From: a virus
Reading direction: 5' to 3' (one strand)
IMG/VR virus record: IMGVR_UViG_3300033149_003399
Coordinates: 1 to 43,319 of that record
DNA length: 43,319 nucleotides
Shown here: positions 1 through 43,319 of the stretch, piece by piece
Layout of the letters: every line of letters starts with the position of its first letter
Position numbering within the stretch: the stretch's first letter is position 1
Notes under the pieces: generated by a model
The model's input: only the letters and a program-made list of their open reading frames with translations
Databases searched by the model: none
What the model was told of the DNA's origin: nothing
Position numbers and translations under genes: made by a program

Positions 1-114
1 CGTGAAACTCACGAAGGCTTACGTTTCAGTTTATAATGGCGTGCTCCAGCTTAACGTCGGCAAGTGGGGCACGATAGAGAAGACCAGTGAGCCGGTTGAA
101 ACGGCTGACGTTAC
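1..114. repeat. Terminal direct repeat, copy at left end
   Basis: Bases 1-114 are identical to 43206-43319. The repeat lies inside the ssDNA-binding-protein gene, whose reading frame continues without a break across the junction. This is the usual signature of a circular assembly (a circular or circularly permuted genome) with a short overlap at the cut. It is not likely to be a biological long terminal repeat. The unique genome length is therefore 43,205 bp. Confidence 0.95.
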
Positions 115-21826: not shown

Positions 21827-21910
21827 TTATTCGCTTTTCATATTTAATATCGCGACTTTTGGCATCACTACCATCGGGGCGAATGCCATTTTTTTCGCTT
21901 TCATTAGCAT
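21827..21910 (-). CDS. Met-rich peptide, 27 aa
   Basis: The ATG overlaps the terminase stop by one base (TGATG) and the sequence has seven Met and several Lys. Its in-frame stop precedes the next gene by 7 bp. It is short, but the coupling is the same as throughout this operon. Function unknown. Confidence 0.35.
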   Translation of the reverse strand: MLMKAKKMAFAPMVVMPKVAILNMKSE

Positions 21911-23700
21911 CAGTACGCAAAATCATCACCGCGGATGTCGAAATCACTCGACATGTAGTTCACCTGGGATATGCCCATCTCGAGCGCATCGAGCAGGTGG
22001 TTGTCGTCGGTCTCGGGAAAGTTCAGGATCTCGAACTTAAGCTGGTTCATGCTGCTGTGGAACCAGATCTTGTGATTCTGGAACAATCCCTCGAGCGAGA
22101 GTATCCGGTCTATCTTCCTGCCCTTAACTTTCTTGATAAACTTGATCGGGAACCACGTGTTATCAGGCCAGTCTTTCGTCAGCACGCCAAACCCTGCCAC
22201 CGCCTCCACGAACCACGAGACCGACATCGCCTTGCGCCTCCACCGCACCGCCATGTTGTGAATGCTATTAAACGTATTTGCAAGTGTTTGACGGCGGTGA
22301 GCTATGTCAAGTATGATTATGTTCCTAAGCTCGTCAATGGTAAAGCACACAACCCCGGTGTAATCTGCCGCCTGCTCTTCCGATAGAGCCAGATCCACGG
22401 CGATGTAGACCGGATAGTTGCGAAGGTCGTGCAGGATCTCGCTCAGCTTCTTATACGTGCAGATGTATTCGTCCTTGAACTTGAGCCCCTTCAGTGGCGT
22501 GGGATTGTTCTGATATTCTCGCTCGAAGAAGATCGTGCCGACCTGCTGCCTCTTAAGCAGCAGTTCTTCGATGGTCCATCCGAAATCCGGCGCAAACACC
22601 TCGTAGTCGCCGTAAACCTCCACGCCGATGATCGTGCCCTCGGGGTCGCGGACGTATCTATACGTGTCCGGGCCTTCGGTCTTGTAGTCGCCACTGATTA
22701 TGGCCTGATTGACAAAAGTTTTCGAAGATTGCTTGTGATTTTCGTGGCAGATCCAGCAGTCTTCATCAAGGAAACACGCGGCAAGGTCCTTGTAGCCCTT
22801 CCGGGTCATTATTCCTATGACGAAGCCGCCGTCCCGAAGCGTGTTCATCGCCTCGCCGAGAAGCAGGTCGTGGTAAGTTTTTATGACTTTCGAAGACATT
22901 CCAGCGTGCGTGGGGTCGTCATAGATCAGGACATCGCAGTTCTTGCCCGTGAACGTGGACGTCAGACCGAGTGCCTGCACGCTCGGGTCCTCGATATTTT
23001 TCGGGCGTGCTATGGTAAATTTTTCCGCGCCCCACACGTTTCCCACGCGCCTGAACGGTCCGAAGTCCTTGTTAAGCCGCCGATTGTTTTCGAATTGGTC
23101 CCTAATCGGCTTGATCTTTTCAATCGCAAGGCTCTCTGATTCTGTAAAGTACTTGACAATGTCCATGCGGTTGAAAGTGAGCCAGTGGATAATGAAGTCT
23201 TGGACGATCCCTGTCTTGCCGTGCCGCTTTGGGTCGATGAAATTGATCCACCTATATCCCTGGCGCAGTAGCTGGTAGATCATTCGAAGCCGGCGCTCCT
23301 GCCACTCAACACGCTTCCGATCTAAATAATGGGATCTAAAAAGAACTATGTCCCTCTGGTAGTGTGCTAAAGTCTCGGCAACCTGCTCGAACTTTGATTC
23401 TTTGGATTTTTCCGCCAGAAATTTTTCCCACTGGACGTTTTTACCCTGGAGTTGCAAAAAACGCCGCTGTGATTCTGCGTCTAATTCTTCGAATTTCTCC
23501 TTGACCAGTGGAAATAGCTCCAGAGCTTCCAGCATCTCTTCCATTGAATTTTTAGTTTTCGTGCGCGGTCGTCCGCCCTTAGAAACACGTTTCGGCTTCG
23601 GCTCTGCCTTCTGAACCGAAACACTTTTCAAACGTGGCAGGTTGCGCTTCTTAGGGGGTCTGCCCGCGCCCGGACGGTATCCGCCTTTCGCCATGTTCAT
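21910..23700 (-). CDS. Terminase large subunit
   Basis: 596 residues. ATPase: Walker A DPKRHGKTGIVQ near residue 160, Walker B CDVLIYDDPT near 258. Nuclease: acidic residues VYIAVDLALS near 440 and HLLDALEMG near 572 for the RNase H-like DNA-cleavage site. It pumps DNA through the portal and cuts the concatemer. The N-terminus carries two AT-hook-like motifs (GYRPGAGRPPKKR and GGRPRTKTK), which may aid DNA recognition because no small terminase is seen next to it. Promoter-like AT run just upstream at 23716-23726 leaves little leader. Confidence 0.95.
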   Translation of the reverse strand: MNMAKGGYRPGAGRPPKKRNLPRLKSVSVQKAEPKPKRVSKGGRPRTKTKNSMEEMLEALELFPLVKEKFEELDAESQRRFLQLQGKNVQWEKFLAEKSKESKFEQVAETLAHYQRDIVLFRSHYLDRKRVEWQERRLRMIYQLLRQGYRWINFIDPKRHGKTGIVQDFIIHWLTFNRMDIVKYFTESESLAIEKIKPIRDQFENNRRLNKDFGPFRRVGNVWGAEKFTIARPKNIEDPSVQALGLTSTFTGKNCDVLIYDDPTHAGMSSKVIKTYHDLLLGEAMNTLRDGGFVIGIMTRKGYKDLAACFLDEDCWICHENHKQSSKTFVNQAIISGDYKTEGPDTYRYVRDPEGTIIGVEVYGDYEVFAPDFGWTIEELLLKRQQVGTIFFEREYQNNPTPLKGLKFKDEYICTYKKLSEILHDLRNYPVYIAVDLALSEEQAADYTGVVCFTIDELRNIIILDIAHRRQTLANTFNSIHNMAVRWRRKAMSVSWFVEAVAGFGVLTKDWPDNTWFPIKFIKKVKGRKIDRILSLEGLFQNHKIWFHSSMNQLKFEILNFPETDDNHLLDALEMGISQVNYMSSDFDIRGDDFAY

Positions 23701-25193: not shown

Positions 25194-25457
25194 TCACTTC
25201 CACGGTCGTTTTTTTTTCATTTCTTCTAATAAGCCATATTCCTTGCTTTTGTATGCCGAGAACTCGTCTCCAACGTGCTCGCGGCACTTCTGACAGGCTT
25301 TTTTGCCTAAGAAGTTTTCGTATGGCGTCCCTTTGAAGAAAATGTTTTGAATTTTGAATAAATTTGTTTTATGTTCTTCCCAAATTCCCCCACGCTTCCA
25401 GTTTCGTTTCCATCTGGAAGGGGGCACGTTTCCACAAATCTCACAAATTCTTGCCAT
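25194..25457 (-). CDS. Zinc-finger protein, 87 aa
   Basis: Translation from ATG 25457 with GGTGATAG just upstream. Two CxxC pairs (CEIC near residue 5, CQKC near 55) with a basic, Trp-rich middle (RWKRNWKRGGIWEEHKTN) and a Lys-rich tail. Suggests RNA or DNA binding. It is preceded by a conserved structured leader (25473-25531) that also precedes the Csx16 gene. Confidence 0.65.
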   Translation of the reverse strand: MARICEICGNVPPSRWKRNWKRGGIWEEHKTNLFKIQNIFFKGTPYENFLGKKACQKCREHVGDEFSAYKSKEYGLLEEMKKKRPWK

Positions 25458-25472
25458 TTCTATCACCAATCT

Positions 25473-25531
25473 GGCGGGATATAGCATGTCTGCCCCGAAC
25501 GCCCCGCAGTGCGCCCGGATTGACAGAAAAA
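25473..25531 (-). promoter_or_regulatory. Class II structured leader (hairpin with possible pseudoknot), copy 1
   Basis: On the minus strand: T-rich tract, CTGTCAATC, then stem CCGGGCG/CGUUCGG (plus 25512-25518 with 25495-25501, including two G-U pairs), 10-nt loop CACTGCGGGG, the shared GGGCAG run, GCTATAT and CCCGCC. The loop GCGGG can pair with the downstream CCCGC to form a pseudoknot. The second copy at 26490-26550 keeps loop, spacing and pairing while changing the stem bases. Confidence 0.7.
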
Positions 25532-25899: not shown

Positions 25900-25938
25900 G
25901 CATATATCGTTGATGCATAAAAAACATAAAAAATCTAG
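25900..25938 (-). promoter_or_regulatory. TATA promoter with tandem ACATAAAAAA element
   Basis: The minus-strand promoter reads TTTTTTATGTTTTTTATGCAT and then GATATATGC (plus 25900-25908), about 25 bp before the ATG. The tandem element recurs at 42973-42993, and shorter variants occur at other promoters. The A/T runs also act as the end of the preceding gene's unit. Confidence 0.6.
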
Positions 25939-25945
25939 AAAAAAA

Positions 25946-26176
25946 TTAGAGGGATTTTTTGAGAATGTCCAAGTAATCCAGGTAATCCAGAAGAAGATTG
26001 TAGAGGTCCGCCGCCGTGAATTTGGCGTGCTGAGCTAAGGCATTCAGCGCATCGAACTCCGGCTCGAGAAGCCTGCCGAGCTTCTCCAAAGTATCCGCGA
26101 CTTTCTTCTTAGTAGCCGGTGGGAGCGTTTCGAGCTCCCGTTGATGCAAATTTAGCTTGTTTTGTTTAAATATCAT
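25946..26176 (-). CDS. Hypothetical helical protein, 76 aa
   Basis: Overlaps the Csx16 gene by 11 bp and is probably translated with it. Its composition is that of a charged helical bundle (ETLPPATKKKVADTLEKLGR, later LYNLLLDYLDYLDILKK). Because it is coupled to a candidate anti-CRISPR, it is itself a guilt-by-association candidate. Confidence 0.6.
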   Translation of the reverse strand: MIFKQNKLNLHQRELETLPPATKKKVADTLEKLGRLLEPEFDALNALAQHAKFTAADLYNLLLDYLDYLDILKKSL

Positions 26177-26468
26177 TCTCCTTCTCCGCTGGGTGCTTCA
26201 TGATGATATACCGGTTGATCTTGCAACCGAACTCTTCCATGTCGTCAGCCGTGAGCTCTTTCCCACGTGCTTCGACTGGGATGTCCATTGTCAAGTGCCA
26301 GTACTCTTTTGCAAGGGCGGCAAGGTTCACGGGGAGCGTCCCGATAACCACGTTGCCAAATAAATCATCTGGTACGGCGTGCTTTAGCACCTTAGCTCCC
26401 GAGAGCTCGGGATGGTGCCGTTTTAGCCATTCAATAGCGCCTGGATGGCGCGAGATTATTATTGTCAT
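26166..26468 (-). CDS. csx16: Csx16-family (VVA1548) protein, candidate ring nuclease / anti-type III CRISPR
   Basis: 100 residues with the family signature: MTIIISRHPGAIEWLKRH at the start, VVIGTLPVNLAALAKEYWHL around 40-60, DIPVEARGKELTADDMEEFG near 65-82 and a final RYIIMKH strand. Csx16 is a CRISPR-associated ancillary protein. I recall recent work placing it among the ring nucleases that degrade cyclic oligoadenylates made by type III systems, but cannot check this here. No other cas gene is present, so in a virus it would act as an anti-CRISPR by removing the signal. It overlaps a downstream 76-aa gene and has the class II leader upstream. Family call high; activity inferred. Confidence 0.92.
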   Translation of the reverse strand: MTIIISRHPGAIEWLKRHHPELSGAKVLKHAVPDDLFGNVVIGTLPVNLAALAKEYWHLTMDIPVEARGKELTADDMEEFGCKINRYIIMKHPAEKENDI

Positions 26469-26489: not shown

Positions 26490-26550
26490 TGCGGGGTATA
26501 GCGTTCCTGCCCTGCACGTCCCGCAAGGCGTGCAGATTGACAGAAAAAAA
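26490..26550 (-). promoter_or_regulatory. Class II structured leader (hairpin with possible pseudoknot), copy 2
   Basis: On the minus strand: T7, CTGTCAATC, stem CTGCACG/CGTGCAG (plus 26529-26535 with 26512-26518), 10-nt loop CCTTGCGGGA, GGGCAG, GCTATAC and CCCGCA. The loop UGCGGG is complementary to CCCGCA downstream (six pairs). The stem differs from copy 1 at several positions with pairing kept, a compensatory pattern. It lies immediately upstream of the Csx16 gene. Confidence 0.7.
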
Positions 26551-26554
26551 GGGG

Positions 26555-26827
26555 TTATTTGATGCCGTAACCGTCCGAATCGATGACATCAAACGTCATC
26601 TGAAACGCGTGCTTTTCGAGCATTATGACAAGATAATGAACGTCTTCACGCTCAATGCCTTCGTCATCAACACCCCTTGCCGTGATCTTAACGACGAGGT
26701 TGGCATCTTTTTTGATATCCTTGTCCGTGGTTTTTGGGAGCTCTGTAATATCGCTCTCTTTTAGTGTGATTCTATACGTGCTATGAGAAACAAAGTCGAA
26801 TCCCATGCAAATTTTTTCATCAGCCAT
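26555..26827 (-). CDS. Hypothetical protein, 90 aa
   Basis: A beta-type small protein (ADEKICMGFDFVSHSTYRIT, later DDEGIEREDVHYLVIMLEKH) with no recognised domain. It has a class I leader (26828-26879) and strong GGAAGCGAT site upstream. It precedes the Csx16 gene in the same unit and could be a second anti-defence protein, by location only. Confidence 0.6.
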   Translation of the reverse strand: MADEKICMGFDFVSHSTYRITLKESDITELPKTTDKDIKKDANLVVKITARGVDDEGIEREDVHYLVIMLEKHAFQMTFDVIDSDGYGIK

Positions 26828-26890: not shown

Positions 26891-27178
26891 TTAGGCGAAT
26901 GGGCGGCACCAGAGCCGCCATTCCCACTCATTCTCGTCGCAGTCCTCCTGATCGGAGTTCTCGACCACGACAATTTCGCTCATGTAATATTCGGGGATGA
27001 CCTCTTCGGCAAGCTCTGACATGAGATCATTAGCGAGGTTAATATCCTCGCTTGTCAGCTCGCGATTGAACCGAGCGGTCGCAAACGTGTAATGTCCTTC
27101 GGGATGGGCAAGCGTCTCGTCCCATGCCGCCTTAAGCGATTCCTTGAAGTCGTTCTTATTAATAATTTCCAGATGCAT
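26891..27178 (-). CDS. Acidic hypothetical protein, 95 aa
   Basis: Strongly acidic near the C-terminus (NSDQEDCDENEWEWRLW). It starts at 27178 with GGTGAT before the ATG and is first in the unit that contains the Csx16 gene. Such acidic small proteins can act as DNA or protein mimics in anti-defence, but this is inference. Confidence 0.6.
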   Translation of the reverse strand: MHLEIINKNDFKESLKAAWDETLAHPEGHYTFATARFNRELTSEDINLANDLMSELAEEVIPEYYMSEIVVVENSDQEDCDENEWEWRLWCRPFA

Positions 27179-27210: not shown

Positions 27211-27245
27211 GCATATATAGTTAATTTTTATGTTTTTTATGTTGC
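27211..27245 (-). promoter_or_regulatory. TATA promoter with inverted ACATAAAAAACATAAAAA element
   Basis: Minus strand: ACATAAAAAACATAAAAAT (plus 27224-27242), then ACTATATATGC (plus 27211-27221), then about 33 bp to the ATG at 27178. The upstream element is the reverse orientation of that at 25900-25938, so orientation seems not to matter. Confidence 0.6.
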
Positions 27246-28240: not shown

Positions 28241-28509
28241 TCCAAATCATCCCACGTTCCCTTGTTGTAATAACGGTCGTTCAGCAACCTGCTCTCTATT
28301 AGATGGTGATATTTCGGCTTGCCGAGGTCAAAATATTTATATTCTTCGTCTCTGGTCAAGAAAGGCTCGTCCAATATTCCGATGAGATAAAACTGATGCA
28401 ACATCACGCGGTTATCCCACGTTCTGTTGTTTCTATTGTCGATCGTATCCACGAACTCTTTTATTATTTTCTTAACGTCTTCCCTTAGTTTTAATGCATC
28501 GATCATCAT
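28237..28509 (-). CDS. Hypothetical protein, 90 aa
   Basis: Helical, charged protein (MIDALKLREDVKKIIKEFVD) with a conserved-looking Tyr/His-rich middle (GKPKYHHLIESRLLNDRY). Overlaps both neighbours by 4 bp. No domain recognised. Confidence 0.6.
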   Translation of the reverse strand: MMIDALKLREDVKKIIKEFVDTIDNRNNRTWDNRVMLHQFYLIGILDEPFLTRDEEYKYFDLGKPKYHHLIESRLLNDRYYNKGTWDDLE

Positions 28510-28913
28510 TTTTCTATCTTCTCCTCGAGCATGTCGCTAAGTTTTTTCACGCGTTCGATTAGAAACACTTTATCCGCCAGCCGCGTGCCTTTTGGGCAAG
28601 CCCGGAGCGGAAGCGTTCTTTGTAGCGTCTTGCTGAAAAAGTCGGGATGGAATAGCTCGGTTCCCTTGCTCGGCACGTATCTGCAACGCCATATTTCTGC
28701 GTGGCGTGCGACCGGACCGACATCGGGATATCCTATGAACCTGAGCGCGTTCTCGAGCGTGTCGAACACGGCGAGCGGACCGTATCCGATTTTTGGCACG
28801 GTTGTCGCCTTCTTCCTGTATGCCGTGGGGCGTGTCTGCATCGTGAAGCTGTACAGCTTTCCACAAATCGTCTCCACGATCTTGTATCCTTCTTCCCACT
28901 TCTCTTCACTCAT
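28506..28913 (-). CDS. Tandem paralogue family, member A, 135 aa
   Basis: One of four neighbouring paralogues (28506, 28910, 29284, 29996). Shared blocks: GYKIVE near the start, LYSFTM, PLAVFDTLENALRFIG, KCRYVPS-type strand, then GTRLADKVFLIE at the end. Each gene overlaps the next by 4 bp. Not a family I can name; the shared pattern suggests one small alpha/beta domain. Member A has the longest C-terminal helix (LSDMLEEKIEK). Confidence 0.65.
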   Translation of the reverse strand: MSEEKWEEGYKIVETICGKLYSFTMQTRPTAYRKKATTVPKIGYGPLAVFDTLENALRFIGYPDVGPVARHAEIWRCRYVPSKGTELFHPDFFSKTLQRTLPLRACPKGTRLADKVFLIERVKKLSDMLEEKIEK

Positions 28914-29287
28914 GGTTTAACTTCCTCCAATAAAATCACCTTGTCGGCAAAGATCACTCCAATGGGATAATCTGAACACGAAATGCGTTCCTCCCAACCG
29001 TCATTTGTTATATAATAGAGTGATGTTTCCGTGCTACGCACGAACTTGCATTTCCAAACCTCAAATCTCCGGATCTCTTTGGTGTCAAACCCATTTAAAA
29101 AATCACGGAGGTGTTCGAGCGTATCAAAAACCGCGAACGGTCCACAGCCGGGTCGCCGCTCGGTTATCTTGTCAGTAAAATACTCGGTGAGTGGCACGTG
29201 CCAATGCATGAGAAGGCTGAAATGCCTATTCCCGAGTATTAGCCTGGTTAATGCCTTATACCCGATTTCCCATTTTTCCTCGCTCAT
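28910..29287 (-). CDS. Tandem paralogue family, member B, 125 aa
   Basis: Starts at ATG 29287 after GGAGG. Contains GYKALTRLI, CGPFAVFDTLEHLRDFLNG, WKCKFVRSTET and IGVIFADKVILLEEV, matching members A, C and D in order. Divergence among copies is high outside these blocks. Function unknown. Confidence 0.65.
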   Translation of the reverse strand: MSEEKWEIGYKALTRLILGNRHFSLLMHWHVPLTEYFTDKITERRPGCGPFAVFDTLEHLRDFLNGFDTKEIRRFEVWKCKFVRSTETSLYYITNDGWEERISCSDYPIGVIFADKVILLEEVKP

Positions 29288-29673
29288 AACGTTATTTCCT
29301 CCGTTAGCATTACCGCGTCCGCCAGTCGCGTCCCCATGGGGAACTTCGTGGAAAAAAGGACGTAAAGCGTGCCGGTCTGGTCGTAGAACGACATCGTTCC
29401 TCGCACGCTCGGGCGGTAACGGCACTTATAAATATGCAGGTCGAGTTTCCCAATGTCTATGACATTACAAGCCAAAAAGTGGCTTGCATGTTCCAGCGTG
29501 TCGAATACCGCAAGCGGTCCGTTCTCATATGCTGGCTTTGTCTCCTTGCCGAGCCGATATTGCACTGCGGCAGGATGATACATGGTGCAGCTCCAGAGCG
29601 TGCCGCCGGGGCGGCGCTCGACTATCTTGTAGCCGTCTTTCCACGGGCTAATGATATCTGACTCCTCGTTCAT
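29284..29673 (-). CDS. Tandem paralogue family, member C, 129 aa
   Basis: Starts at 29673. Contains GYKIVERRPGGTLWSCTM, NGPLAVFDTLEHASHFL, IYKCRYRPS and GTRLADAVMLTEEI, in the order of the other copies. ATGA overlaps on both sides. Function unknown. Confidence 0.65.
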   Translation of the reverse strand: MNEESDIISPWKDGYKIVERRPGGTLWSCTMYHPAAVQYRLGKETKPAYENGPLAVFDTLEHASHFLACNVIDIGKLDLHIYKCRYRPSVRGTMSFYDQTGTLYVLFSTKFPMGTRLADAVMLTEEITL

Positions 29674-29999
29674 TTTACGTCCTCCAGCATCTCTTTTAAT
29701 CGGCGGAGAATCTCCTCGTAAAGAGGCAGTACTTTCTCGTATGGCGCTTCTCGTGCGAGACTCCATAAGTCCTCGCCAGACATTCCGCAAATCCCAGCGG
29801 GTATGAGCGGACATGGGGGATCTCTATTAAAAAGCTCATTATATTCTCGCTTGTGGCAGGCATAATGCTTGCAGAAACGGCAACATGTATGATGTAATGA
29901 GTCCGCCTCGTCTGGAAATCCATTCTTATATGCCTCAATGACTTTCTCATATTTATAGATCGTCGCCTTGAGGCAGAAATTGAGCATCTCGTCGGTCAT
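29670..29999 (-). CDS. Cys-rich protein with GICG..LW motif, 109 aa
   Basis: Contains CCRFCKHYACHKREY near residue 40-55 and CPLIPAGICGMSGEDLW near 68-83; the second block recurs in the gene at 30896-31255 (CPCYTRGICGSRESLW). Probably zinc-binding. It lies inside the series of tandem paralogues A-D, separating C from D. Function unknown. Confidence 0.6.
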   Translation of the reverse strand: MTDEMLNFCLKATIYKYEKVIEAYKNGFPDEADSLHHTCCRFCKHYACHKREYNELFNRDPPCPLIPAGICGMSGEDLWSLAREAPYEKVLPLYEEILRRLKEMLEDVK

Positions 30000-30712
30000 T
30001 TGTCAAACATCTCCATTAATTCGTCCCATTCTACATAGTTGCGCGGCTCTGGCTCGCGGAAGTCCCAAACCTCCACGCTTATTAATCGGTTAGGGGCTGT
30101 ACCTTGATAGTGCGTGCCGAATTGCCCGCAAACTATGGAGAATCTTTTCTTTCCGTTTTTACTCCCCACCACTTGATATTTGGTGTCGCCTAGATATATT
30201 GCCGTTGCGAAATGTTCGACTTCGTGTCCGCGCTTCTCGAGTTCTTCACCGACCTCGTTTATCGTGAAGATTCTCTTAAACTCCATGACCTTGTCGAGCA
30301 GTTTAACCCGCGATGCCAGGGTCGTTCCCTCGGGACACGTGTTCAGCGGTCTGCGCAGCCAATTGCCATCCGTTACATCCACGTAGAGGAACGGTTCGAT
30401 TTCGGCTGAACGGACGAATTTACACGCATGTATGACCCAAAAGGCATGCATGTTGTGCCATTCTATGAACCAGCATGCTTGCGCGAGCTCCTTGAAGACC
30501 GCCAGAGGTCCGCATCGGGGGCGCGGATATGTGGTCTTTCCAACAGTATATTCGAGCTTATAAGAAGTCGGAATAGAACAGCTATAGAGTTTGCCGTCTT
30601 TATCTCGATATAGAACCTTGTATCCGTCTTCCCATTGCGCTATCCTGTCGGATAGTTCTTGAATTTCCTTGCCGAAAGCACGGATGGTATCATCTGTTTG
30701 ATTTGTCATCAT
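29996..30712 (-). CDS. Tandem paralogue family, member D with extra C-terminal domain, 238 aa
   Basis: The first ~135 residues match A-C (EDGYKVLYRDKDGKLYSCSI, CGPLAVFKELAQACWFI, KFVRSAE, GTTLASRVKLLDKV). The last ~95 residues (FTINEVGEELEKRGHEVEHF, then a beta-rich region) are an additional domain absent from the others. Likely the ancestral or a fused form. Function unknown. Confidence 0.65.
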   Translation of the reverse strand: MMTNQTDDTIRAFGKEIQELSDRIAQWEDGYKVLYRDKDGKLYSCSIPTSYKLEYTVGKTTYPRPRCGPLAVFKELAQACWFIEWHNMHAFWVIHACKFVRSAEIEPFLYVDVTDGNWLRRPLNTCPEGTTLASRVKLLDKVMEFKRIFTINEVGEELEKRGHEVEHFATAIYLGDTKYQVVGSKNGKKRFSIVCGQFGTHYQGTAPNRLISVEVWDFREPEPRNYVEWDELMEMFDK

Positions 30713-33540: not shown

Positions 33541-33625
33541 TTCTCCTTTTAAATTAATTTTAAAAAAACATAAAAAACACATGTTTTTGTGACAAATTCT
33601 TGCATGAACGAGTATATAAAAATGA
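33541..33625. promoter_or_regulatory. Bidirectional promoter region with shared element in both orientations
   Basis: Minus strand: TTTTTTATGTTTTTTT (plus 33562-33577), a TATA-like TTTAAAATTAATTT and AAAGGAG lead to the gene at 33532. Plus strand: ATGTTTTTGTGAC (33581-33593), the conserved 13-mer, then GTATATAAAA (33612-33621). The plus promoter has no evident gene until 34334 and may make a noncoding transcript through the repeat region. Confidence 0.5.
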
Positions 33626-34103: not shown

Positions 34104-34333
34104 ACAGCATCACGTGGAATCTTTCCTATATATGCATGTCGGTCGAAGGCGGATTTCGAAAATAATCCGTCTAAATGCTTCTTTTTGCCAGAAGCTCTCT
34201 AAAAACCCGCTTTCGAATGGTTCCAATGGAAACAAGGGGGGTATTTATAAACAGCATTTATATATTACATTACAGCATATACTAACATAAATAAACATAA
34301 AAAAAATGAAAAAATGATTAGGAGCAACATTAA
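34104..34333. promoter_or_regulatory. Probable replication origin with canonical archaeal origin recognition box
   Basis: Plus strand 34221-34241 reads TTCCAATGGAAAC, then AA, then six Gs. This has the ORB dyad TTCCANTGGAA followed by AC and the G-string, the hallmark of Orc1/Cdc6 binding sites. It is flanked on one side by the inverted repeat CGGATT/AATCCG (34150-34169) and on the other by an AT-rich stretch (34243-34318), a likely duplex-unwinding element. Transcription runs away from this point on both sides. Only one strong box is visible. Confidence 0.65.
34127..34137 (-). promoter_or_regulatory. TATA box for the 34103 gene
   Basis: CATATATAGG on the minus strand, about 25 bp from the ATG, with CATG just upstream as possible BRE. 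The transcript would be nearly leaderless. Confidence 0.5.
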
Positions 34334-40170: not shown

Positions 40171-42510
<2,340 letters not shown>

Positions 42511-42521
<11 letters not shown>

Positions 42522-43008: not shown

Positions 43009-43319
43009 ATGAAAATTTCCGAAATTGATGCTAAATCGAAGAACGTGAGCCTCGTGGCAGTCGTGAACGAGAAAGATGAGCCTCGACGTGTTAATACGCG
43101 AAATGGCGAACAAACTGTTTGCAGCTTTCTTCTCGTTGATGGGACCGGTCAGATCCTGCTATCGCTGTGGGATGACGACATAAACAAGTTTAATGTCGGC
43201 GACCGCGTGAAACTCACGAAGGCTTACGTTTCAGTTTATAATGGCGTGCTCCAGCTTAACGTCGGCAAGTGGGGCACGATAGAGAAGACCAGTGAGCCGG
43301 TTGAAACGGCTGACGTTAC
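43009..43319 (+). CDS. ssDNA-binding protein (RPA-like OB fold), N-terminal part
   Basis: The N-terminal 66 residues before the repeated end, plus the overlap; the chain continues at position 2 of the window. MKISEIDAKSKNVSLVAVVN is followed by EQTVCSFLLVDGTGQILLSL and WDDDINKFNVGDR, the strand pattern of archaeal RPA/OB folds (aromatics W and F for base stacking). Total length 136 residues, a single OB fold. SD AGGTG is six bp upstream. First gene of the plus operon. Confidence 0.9.
   Translation, partial: MKISEIDAKSKNVSLVAVVNEKDEPRRVNTRNGEQTVCSFLLVDGTGQILLSLWDDDINKFNVGDRVKLTKAYVSVYNGVLQLNVGKWGTIEKTSEPVETADV
43206..43319. repeat. Terminal direct repeat, copy at right end
   Basis: Exact copy of bases 1-114, inside the SSB coding sequence. 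See the copy at the left end; together they close the circle. Confidence 0.95.

Follow-up and report, generated by a model that had tools for sequence, protein, structure and literature searches.

A virus-encoded, short-form Csx16 as a candidate anti-CRISPR ring nuclease

What might a csx16 gene do in a virus that has no CRISPR system of its own? The question is raised by a virus record of 43,319 bases in IMG/VR, analyzed here over its full length (hereafter, the window), in which an initial annotation had recognized a Csx16 homologue and proposed it as an off-switch for type III CRISPR. Its description of the family as one of ring nucleases was sound, as one member is known to cleave cyclic tetra-adenylate (cA4): a CRISPR-locus Csx16, and not the short form described below, fully degraded cA4 in vitro, in EDTA, and did not degrade cA3 or cA6 (Hoikkala et al., 2025, PMC12409355). 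By analogy with that protein, the expected substrate narrows from cyclic oligoadenylates at large to cA4. According to the same study, 68 type III loci contain Csx16, as do 2 of the 28,114 phage genomes surveyed, the latter being noted as matches without deeper analysis (PMC12409355). Since those two genomes are on record (PMC12409355), and since we also found the gene in the viruses Drs3 and PhiF3, the virus-encoded Csx16 is real but not new in itself.

The csx16 reading frame lies where the annotation had placed it, on the minus strand, which had been left unstated (Table 1), and its product contains all three motifs quoted as the family signature, ISRHPGAIEWLK, VIGTLPVNLA and EARGKELTADD. 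Pfam PF09652 matched at 2.6e-21 (76.1 bits; curated cut-off, 25) across the full domain, NCBIfam TIGR02620, the profile check that the annotation had proposed, matched at 9.3e-16 (57.9 bits; cut-off, 46.35), and PADLOC assigned the protein to Csx16 (1.8e-22). PF09652 gave no match in 14 control genomes. PHROGs held no family for the protein, and the DUF1874 profile of AcrIII-1 (Crn2) did not match it, the only Pfam matches being PF09652 and a sub-threshold TrcR. The gene thus encodes a genuine member of the Csx16 family and not of AcrIII-1/Crn2.

Table 1. Positions of csx16 and other features in the window.
Feature	Position	Strand	Remarks
Direct terminal repeat, left copy	1..114	+	114 bp; identical ends
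Terminase large subunit	21910..23700	-	Tailed-virus hallmark; phrog_38, 1.3e-51
Cys-rich ORF	25194..25457	-	87 aa (97 aa if start 25487); upstream element common with csx16; weak zinc-ribbon match, E 0.06
58-nt element, second copy	25474..25531	-	Before small Cys-rich gene
76-aa ORF	25946..26176	-	11-nt overlap with csx16 3' end; no accepted family
csx16, short form	26166..26468	-	Start 26468, stop 26166; 100 aa; profile matches, conserved residues, LP-to-RG spacing 23
58-nt element	26491..26548	-	23 nt before csx16 start; two stacked stems, loop-to-tail GCGGG/CCCGC pseudoknot possible
90-aa ORF, upstream	26555..26827	-	No accepted family; no csx16 link elsewhere
95-aa acidic ORF, upstream	26891..27178	-	Sub-threshold MPTase-PolyVal, 21.4 bits vs cut-off 27.5
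Direct terminal repeat, right copy	43206..43319	+	114 bp; identical ends

The conserved residues of the family, comprising the RH, H30, G43-x-LP and RG positions, are all retained in the window protein (R7, H8, G10, H30, G43, P46, R68 and G69). Since these are the residues conserved in the cellular family, an intact active site appears to be the simplest reading. Structure prediction, which the annotation had also called for, yielded a confident AlphaFold2 model (pLDDT 94, pTM 0.80) in which strands alternate with helices, i.e., a predicted Rossmann-like, CARF-type fold. The order of elements equaled that in the model of a CRISPR-locus Csx16 (L022, pLDDT 95), with one helix shortened, spanning residues 47-50 in the window protein vs 47-55 in its counterpart. 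Neither PDB nor BFVD yielded a significant match in Foldseek searches; the weak PDB matches included the CARF domains of Cad1, which bind cA4/cA6 (E 0.14 and worse).

The window carries identical 114-bp direct terminal repeats and is therefore complete, as the annotation had held, and it encodes a tail tube protein (Pfam scan) as well as a terminase. Csx16 was the only cas family among the 18 Pfam families found in its 80 ORFs, in agreement with the earlier statement that no other cas gene is present. The gene therefore lies outside a type III CRISPR locus, the typical though not strictly defining location of CRISPR-associated Csx16, and belongs to a mobile genetic element (MGE) that has no type III system itself. 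No tRNAs were found in the window, and its ribosome-binding sites (AAGGAG/AGGAGG type) would suit a bacterial as well as an archaeal host. When 20 kb of the window was searched for spacer matches in 393 Halobacteriota genomes, only chance-level matches appeared, and no CRISPR array occurred at the best-matching loci in those genomes. No close viral relative was found via terminase, portal or one neighbor protein; therefore, acquisition or loss of csx16 at its present locus is not traceable. Elsewhere in the window, four adjoining ORFs on the minus strand (28506-28913, 28910-29425, 29284-29814 and 29996-30712; together 28506-30712) resemble tandem paralogues with a common GPLAVFDTLEHA-like stretch and matching DNA repeats. 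An AT-rich AACATAAAAA-type motif, possibly a promoter element, occurs repeatedly between genes, on both strands (25919-25943, 27218-27243, 33553-33576 and 34280-34314).

The closest relative found was the Csx16 of P-10H_0 (LC711081), an 84-kb plasmid of an uncultured archaeon (60% identity), followed by that of virus contig L094 (52%); the Drs3 copy was 37% identical. The P-10H_0 protein is of the same short form and its plasmid likewise lacks Cas10, but the genes flanking csx16 differ from those in the window virus. Further genes common to the two elements encode a nucleoside deoxyribosyltransferase (56%), methyltransferases (41% and 64%) and a DUF4326 protein (33%); this sharing is suggestive, and only suggestive, of an archaeal host. 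For an adjacent pair of methyltransferase genes in the window (40622-42521, minus strand), the closest plasmid counterparts are on P-10H_0, the bearer of the nearest csx16. That plasmid also contains a ~30-nt repeat, present three times at ~61-nt spacing next to PCNA and Orc1/Cdc6 genes (L074, 10451-10600), which could represent iterons or a CRISPR-like mini-array.

Scans of IMG/VR with single-sequence and two-sequence queries found nothing. Five-sequence alignments as queries returned 8 loci in one scan and 15 in another; these loci represent 18 different contigs, and an identical protein is encoded on two of them. In the phage collection, csx16 was present in the Methanobacterium viruses Drs3 (two records, one genome) and PhiF3, both tailed archaeal viruses without Cas10. 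Plasmid copies without nearby cas genes were found on pMESIL02 (by type IV secretion genes), pDEIPR02 (by single-strand-binding protein genes) and pSC2. In the genome collection, twelve Cas probe proteins found matches at the majority of the 57 csx16 loci on chromosomes; they had none at the 18 IMG/VR contigs, the two methanogen viruses, P-10H_0, pMESIL02, pDEIPR02 or pSC2. Similarly, the Cas10 palm profile PF22335 had no match in 21 csx16-bearing MGE records searched in their entirety, and matched in 20/20 csx16-bearing cellular genomes, 16 of them at 60 bits or more; the Cas10 count was restricted to matches of at least 60 bits because PF22335 also matches in E. coli, presumably via related cyclases. 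On the viral contigs, flanking ORFs matched terminases and N4-like RNA polymerases, and among the 25 commonest PADLOC families (44 others ranked below these), just Csx16 and methyltransferases were present. As to individual plasmids, pMESIL02 encodes a 261-aa protein with apparently two tandem Csx16-like domains (L098, 5998-6780) and a larger one of 671 aa that begins with a Csx16-like domain (L005, 7998-10013); the first such domain of each has Q where the RH motif normally has its conserved R. On pDEIPR02, a short-form csx16 (L099, 6001-6285) is followed by DUF4326 and single-strand-binding protein genes, an arrangement resembling the leading region of conjugative plasmids. Leading regions are places where anti-defence genes gather.

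Comparison of these copies revealed a split within the family that the annotation had not described. With form measured as the number of residues separating the LP and RG motifs, the spacing was 27-28 in 58/58 chromosomal and CRISPR-plasmid Csx16 proteins. Among MGE copies it was 22-24 in 15, and the gap is shared by two others without an exact RG match, so that 17/23 are short, with about four residues (one helical turn) absent; the window copy is among them. The six long MGE copies are those of Drs3 and PhiF3 (spacing 28) and contig L092, which group with methanogen Csx16, plus L009, L012 and L015. The short/long split gave a Fisher p of 8e-13, in a test that ignores relatedness. Within the copies sampled here, the short form was found only on viruses and plasmids. 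Biased cellular sampling was considered as a source of artefact, but for the three phyla re-sampled with the Pfam profile (Pseudomonadota, Acidobacteriota and Halobacteriota) it was not borne out, 19/19 measurable copies being of the long form (some overlapping the 58). Chromosomal sampling consisted of these three phyla by profile together with a motif-based scan. The short forms have kept the conserved residues: H8, G10, G43, P46 and G69 are invariant, H30 is present in 16/17, and R7 and R68 are each kept in 15/17.

In the phylogenetic tree, which superseded an earlier one holding two very divergent plasmid proteins, most MGE copies fell in MGE-only clades. The window protein grouped with those of P-10H_0 and L094 (100/98), apart from a clade uniting 14 copies from viruses and plasmids (98/96). 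When all 17 short forms were constrained to a single clade, the likelihood was 9.2 units above that of the free search (p-AU 0.61), so that a single MGE lineage of short forms is possible, as is convergent loss of the helix turn, the alignment having ~100 columns. It is conceivable, although we regard it as somewhat doubtful, that short-form Csx16 represents a distinct ring-nuclease lineage of viruses and plasmids whose enzyme, having lost a helix turn by the conserved loop, is thereby adapted to turn over rapidly or to act with a changed specificity. If this were true, an anti-CRISPR-adapted subfamily could be told apart by sequence from the host's own off-switch.

Considering its family, its conserved residues and its occurrence without other cas genes, the window Csx16 is probably a cA4-degrading anti-CRISPR ring nuclease, similar in action to AcrIII-1 but of another family. 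The annotation had proposed such a role, and by analogy and lone occurrence it is still the best reading. In the proposed mechanism, a host type III complex would recognize viral RNA and its Cas10 would make cA4. Viral Csx16, a small Rossmann-like (CARF-like) and probably dimeric protein, would bind cA4 via a conserved face bearing the RH, H30, LP and RG residues and cut it to short linear products, leaving cA4-activated effectors off and allowing viral replication to continue. Within a CRISPR locus Csx16 is a brake; in a virus lacking cas genes, the same reaction would remove the signal produced by the host's Cas10, as it does with AcrIII-1. Activity of the window protein, its dimerization, its target and its benefit to the virus are all inferred. 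With one helix turn missing, binding of cA4 or dimerization might be weakened.

That last feature also bears on the alternative that fares best, namely, tight binding of cA4 (or of another cyclic oligonucleotide) by the short form with slow or no cleavage, which would sequester the signal. Phage sponge proteins and Csx15 act in this manner. Csx15, which was once predicted together with Csx16, proved to be a good cA4 sponge and a slow nuclease (PMC13148439); a protein deprived of one turn of the helix adjoining the conserved LP loop could behave likewise. However, the residues common to the CRISPR and MGE forms are kept, with H8 in every copy, Csx15 itself has not been seen in phages, and sponging has been argued to be a poor strategy against large yields of cyclic oligoadenylate (PMC13148439). 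We therefore consider sequestration unlikely. Slightly less likely still is a different or broader target, in which the MGE form would degrade cA3, cA6, or a CBASS or other cyclic nucleotide and counter a defence other than cA4-based type III immunity. The region by the conserved loop is remodeled in most MGE copies, and the phage-borne ring nuclease Crn4 shows that broad specificity is possible (PMC12830947), but the assayed Csx16 was cA4-specific (PMC12409355) and the conserved residues are largely unchanged. Finally, an unused gene of host origin, stray or in decay since its capture from a CRISPR locus, is quite improbable: the virus is known from one record and Csx16 is rare in Halobacteriota (3/393 genomes in our sample), yet the frame is intact with its conserved residues kept, relatives on virus L094 and an archaeal plasmid form one supported clade with it, the gene recurs in unrelated viruses and plasmids, and MGE-only clades for most MGE copies are what would be expected of a kept viral function rather than of stray host genes.

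Destruction of cA4 by the window protein would thus give it the same predicted role as AcrIII-1, with which it shares no family relationship. To our knowledge, DUF1874 (AcrIII-1) is the only experimentally established viral anti-CRISPR ring nuclease. The window Csx16 and its ~20 relatives on viruses and plasmids suggest that counter-defence recurrently employs a second family of ring nucleases, of which mobile elements apparently carry their own, trimmed version. Crn4b, of a different fold and family, is likewise common to CRISPR loci and mobile elements (phages and plasmids) and has been proposed as an anti-CRISPR (PMC12830947). Such proteins make it possible to ask, by direct comparison of enzymes, how a host off-switch adapted to ending an immune response differs from a viral one adapted to forestalling it.

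The annotation had further listed the neighbors of csx16 as anti-defence candidates. Their layout is as it had described, with an overlapping 76-aa gene and 90- and 95-aa genes upstream, all on the same strand, and the 76-aa gene is probably co-transcribed with csx16. Their candidacy fared less well: the 76-, 90-, 95- and 112-aa neighbors had no accepted family match and no counterpart by other MGE csx16 genes, and with both family matches and recurrence absent, an anti-defence cluster is unsupported.

A second feature absent from the annotation is a 58-nt element upstream of csx16 that is repeated before a small Cys-rich gene (Table 1). The two copies are 79% identical, where shuffled sequences are expected to give 0 matches, and each can fold into 5-bp and 7-bp stems. 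All 17 predicted pairs form in both copies, two of them, in the 7-bp stem, being changed on both sides, and in each copy the GCGGG loop is able to pair with CCCGC beside the start codon. Since there are only two copies and their folding energy is modest (z-scores of -1.2 and -1.5), the structure is a lead. The element had no match in Rfam families, IMG/VR contigs or the other csx16 loci compared. Co-regulation of the Cys-rich gene with csx16 is possible. Because shared upstream sequences mark early anti-defence genes in archaeal viruses (PMC11065993), this gene may be a better anti-defence candidate than the neighbors listed earlier, though that is only a guess.
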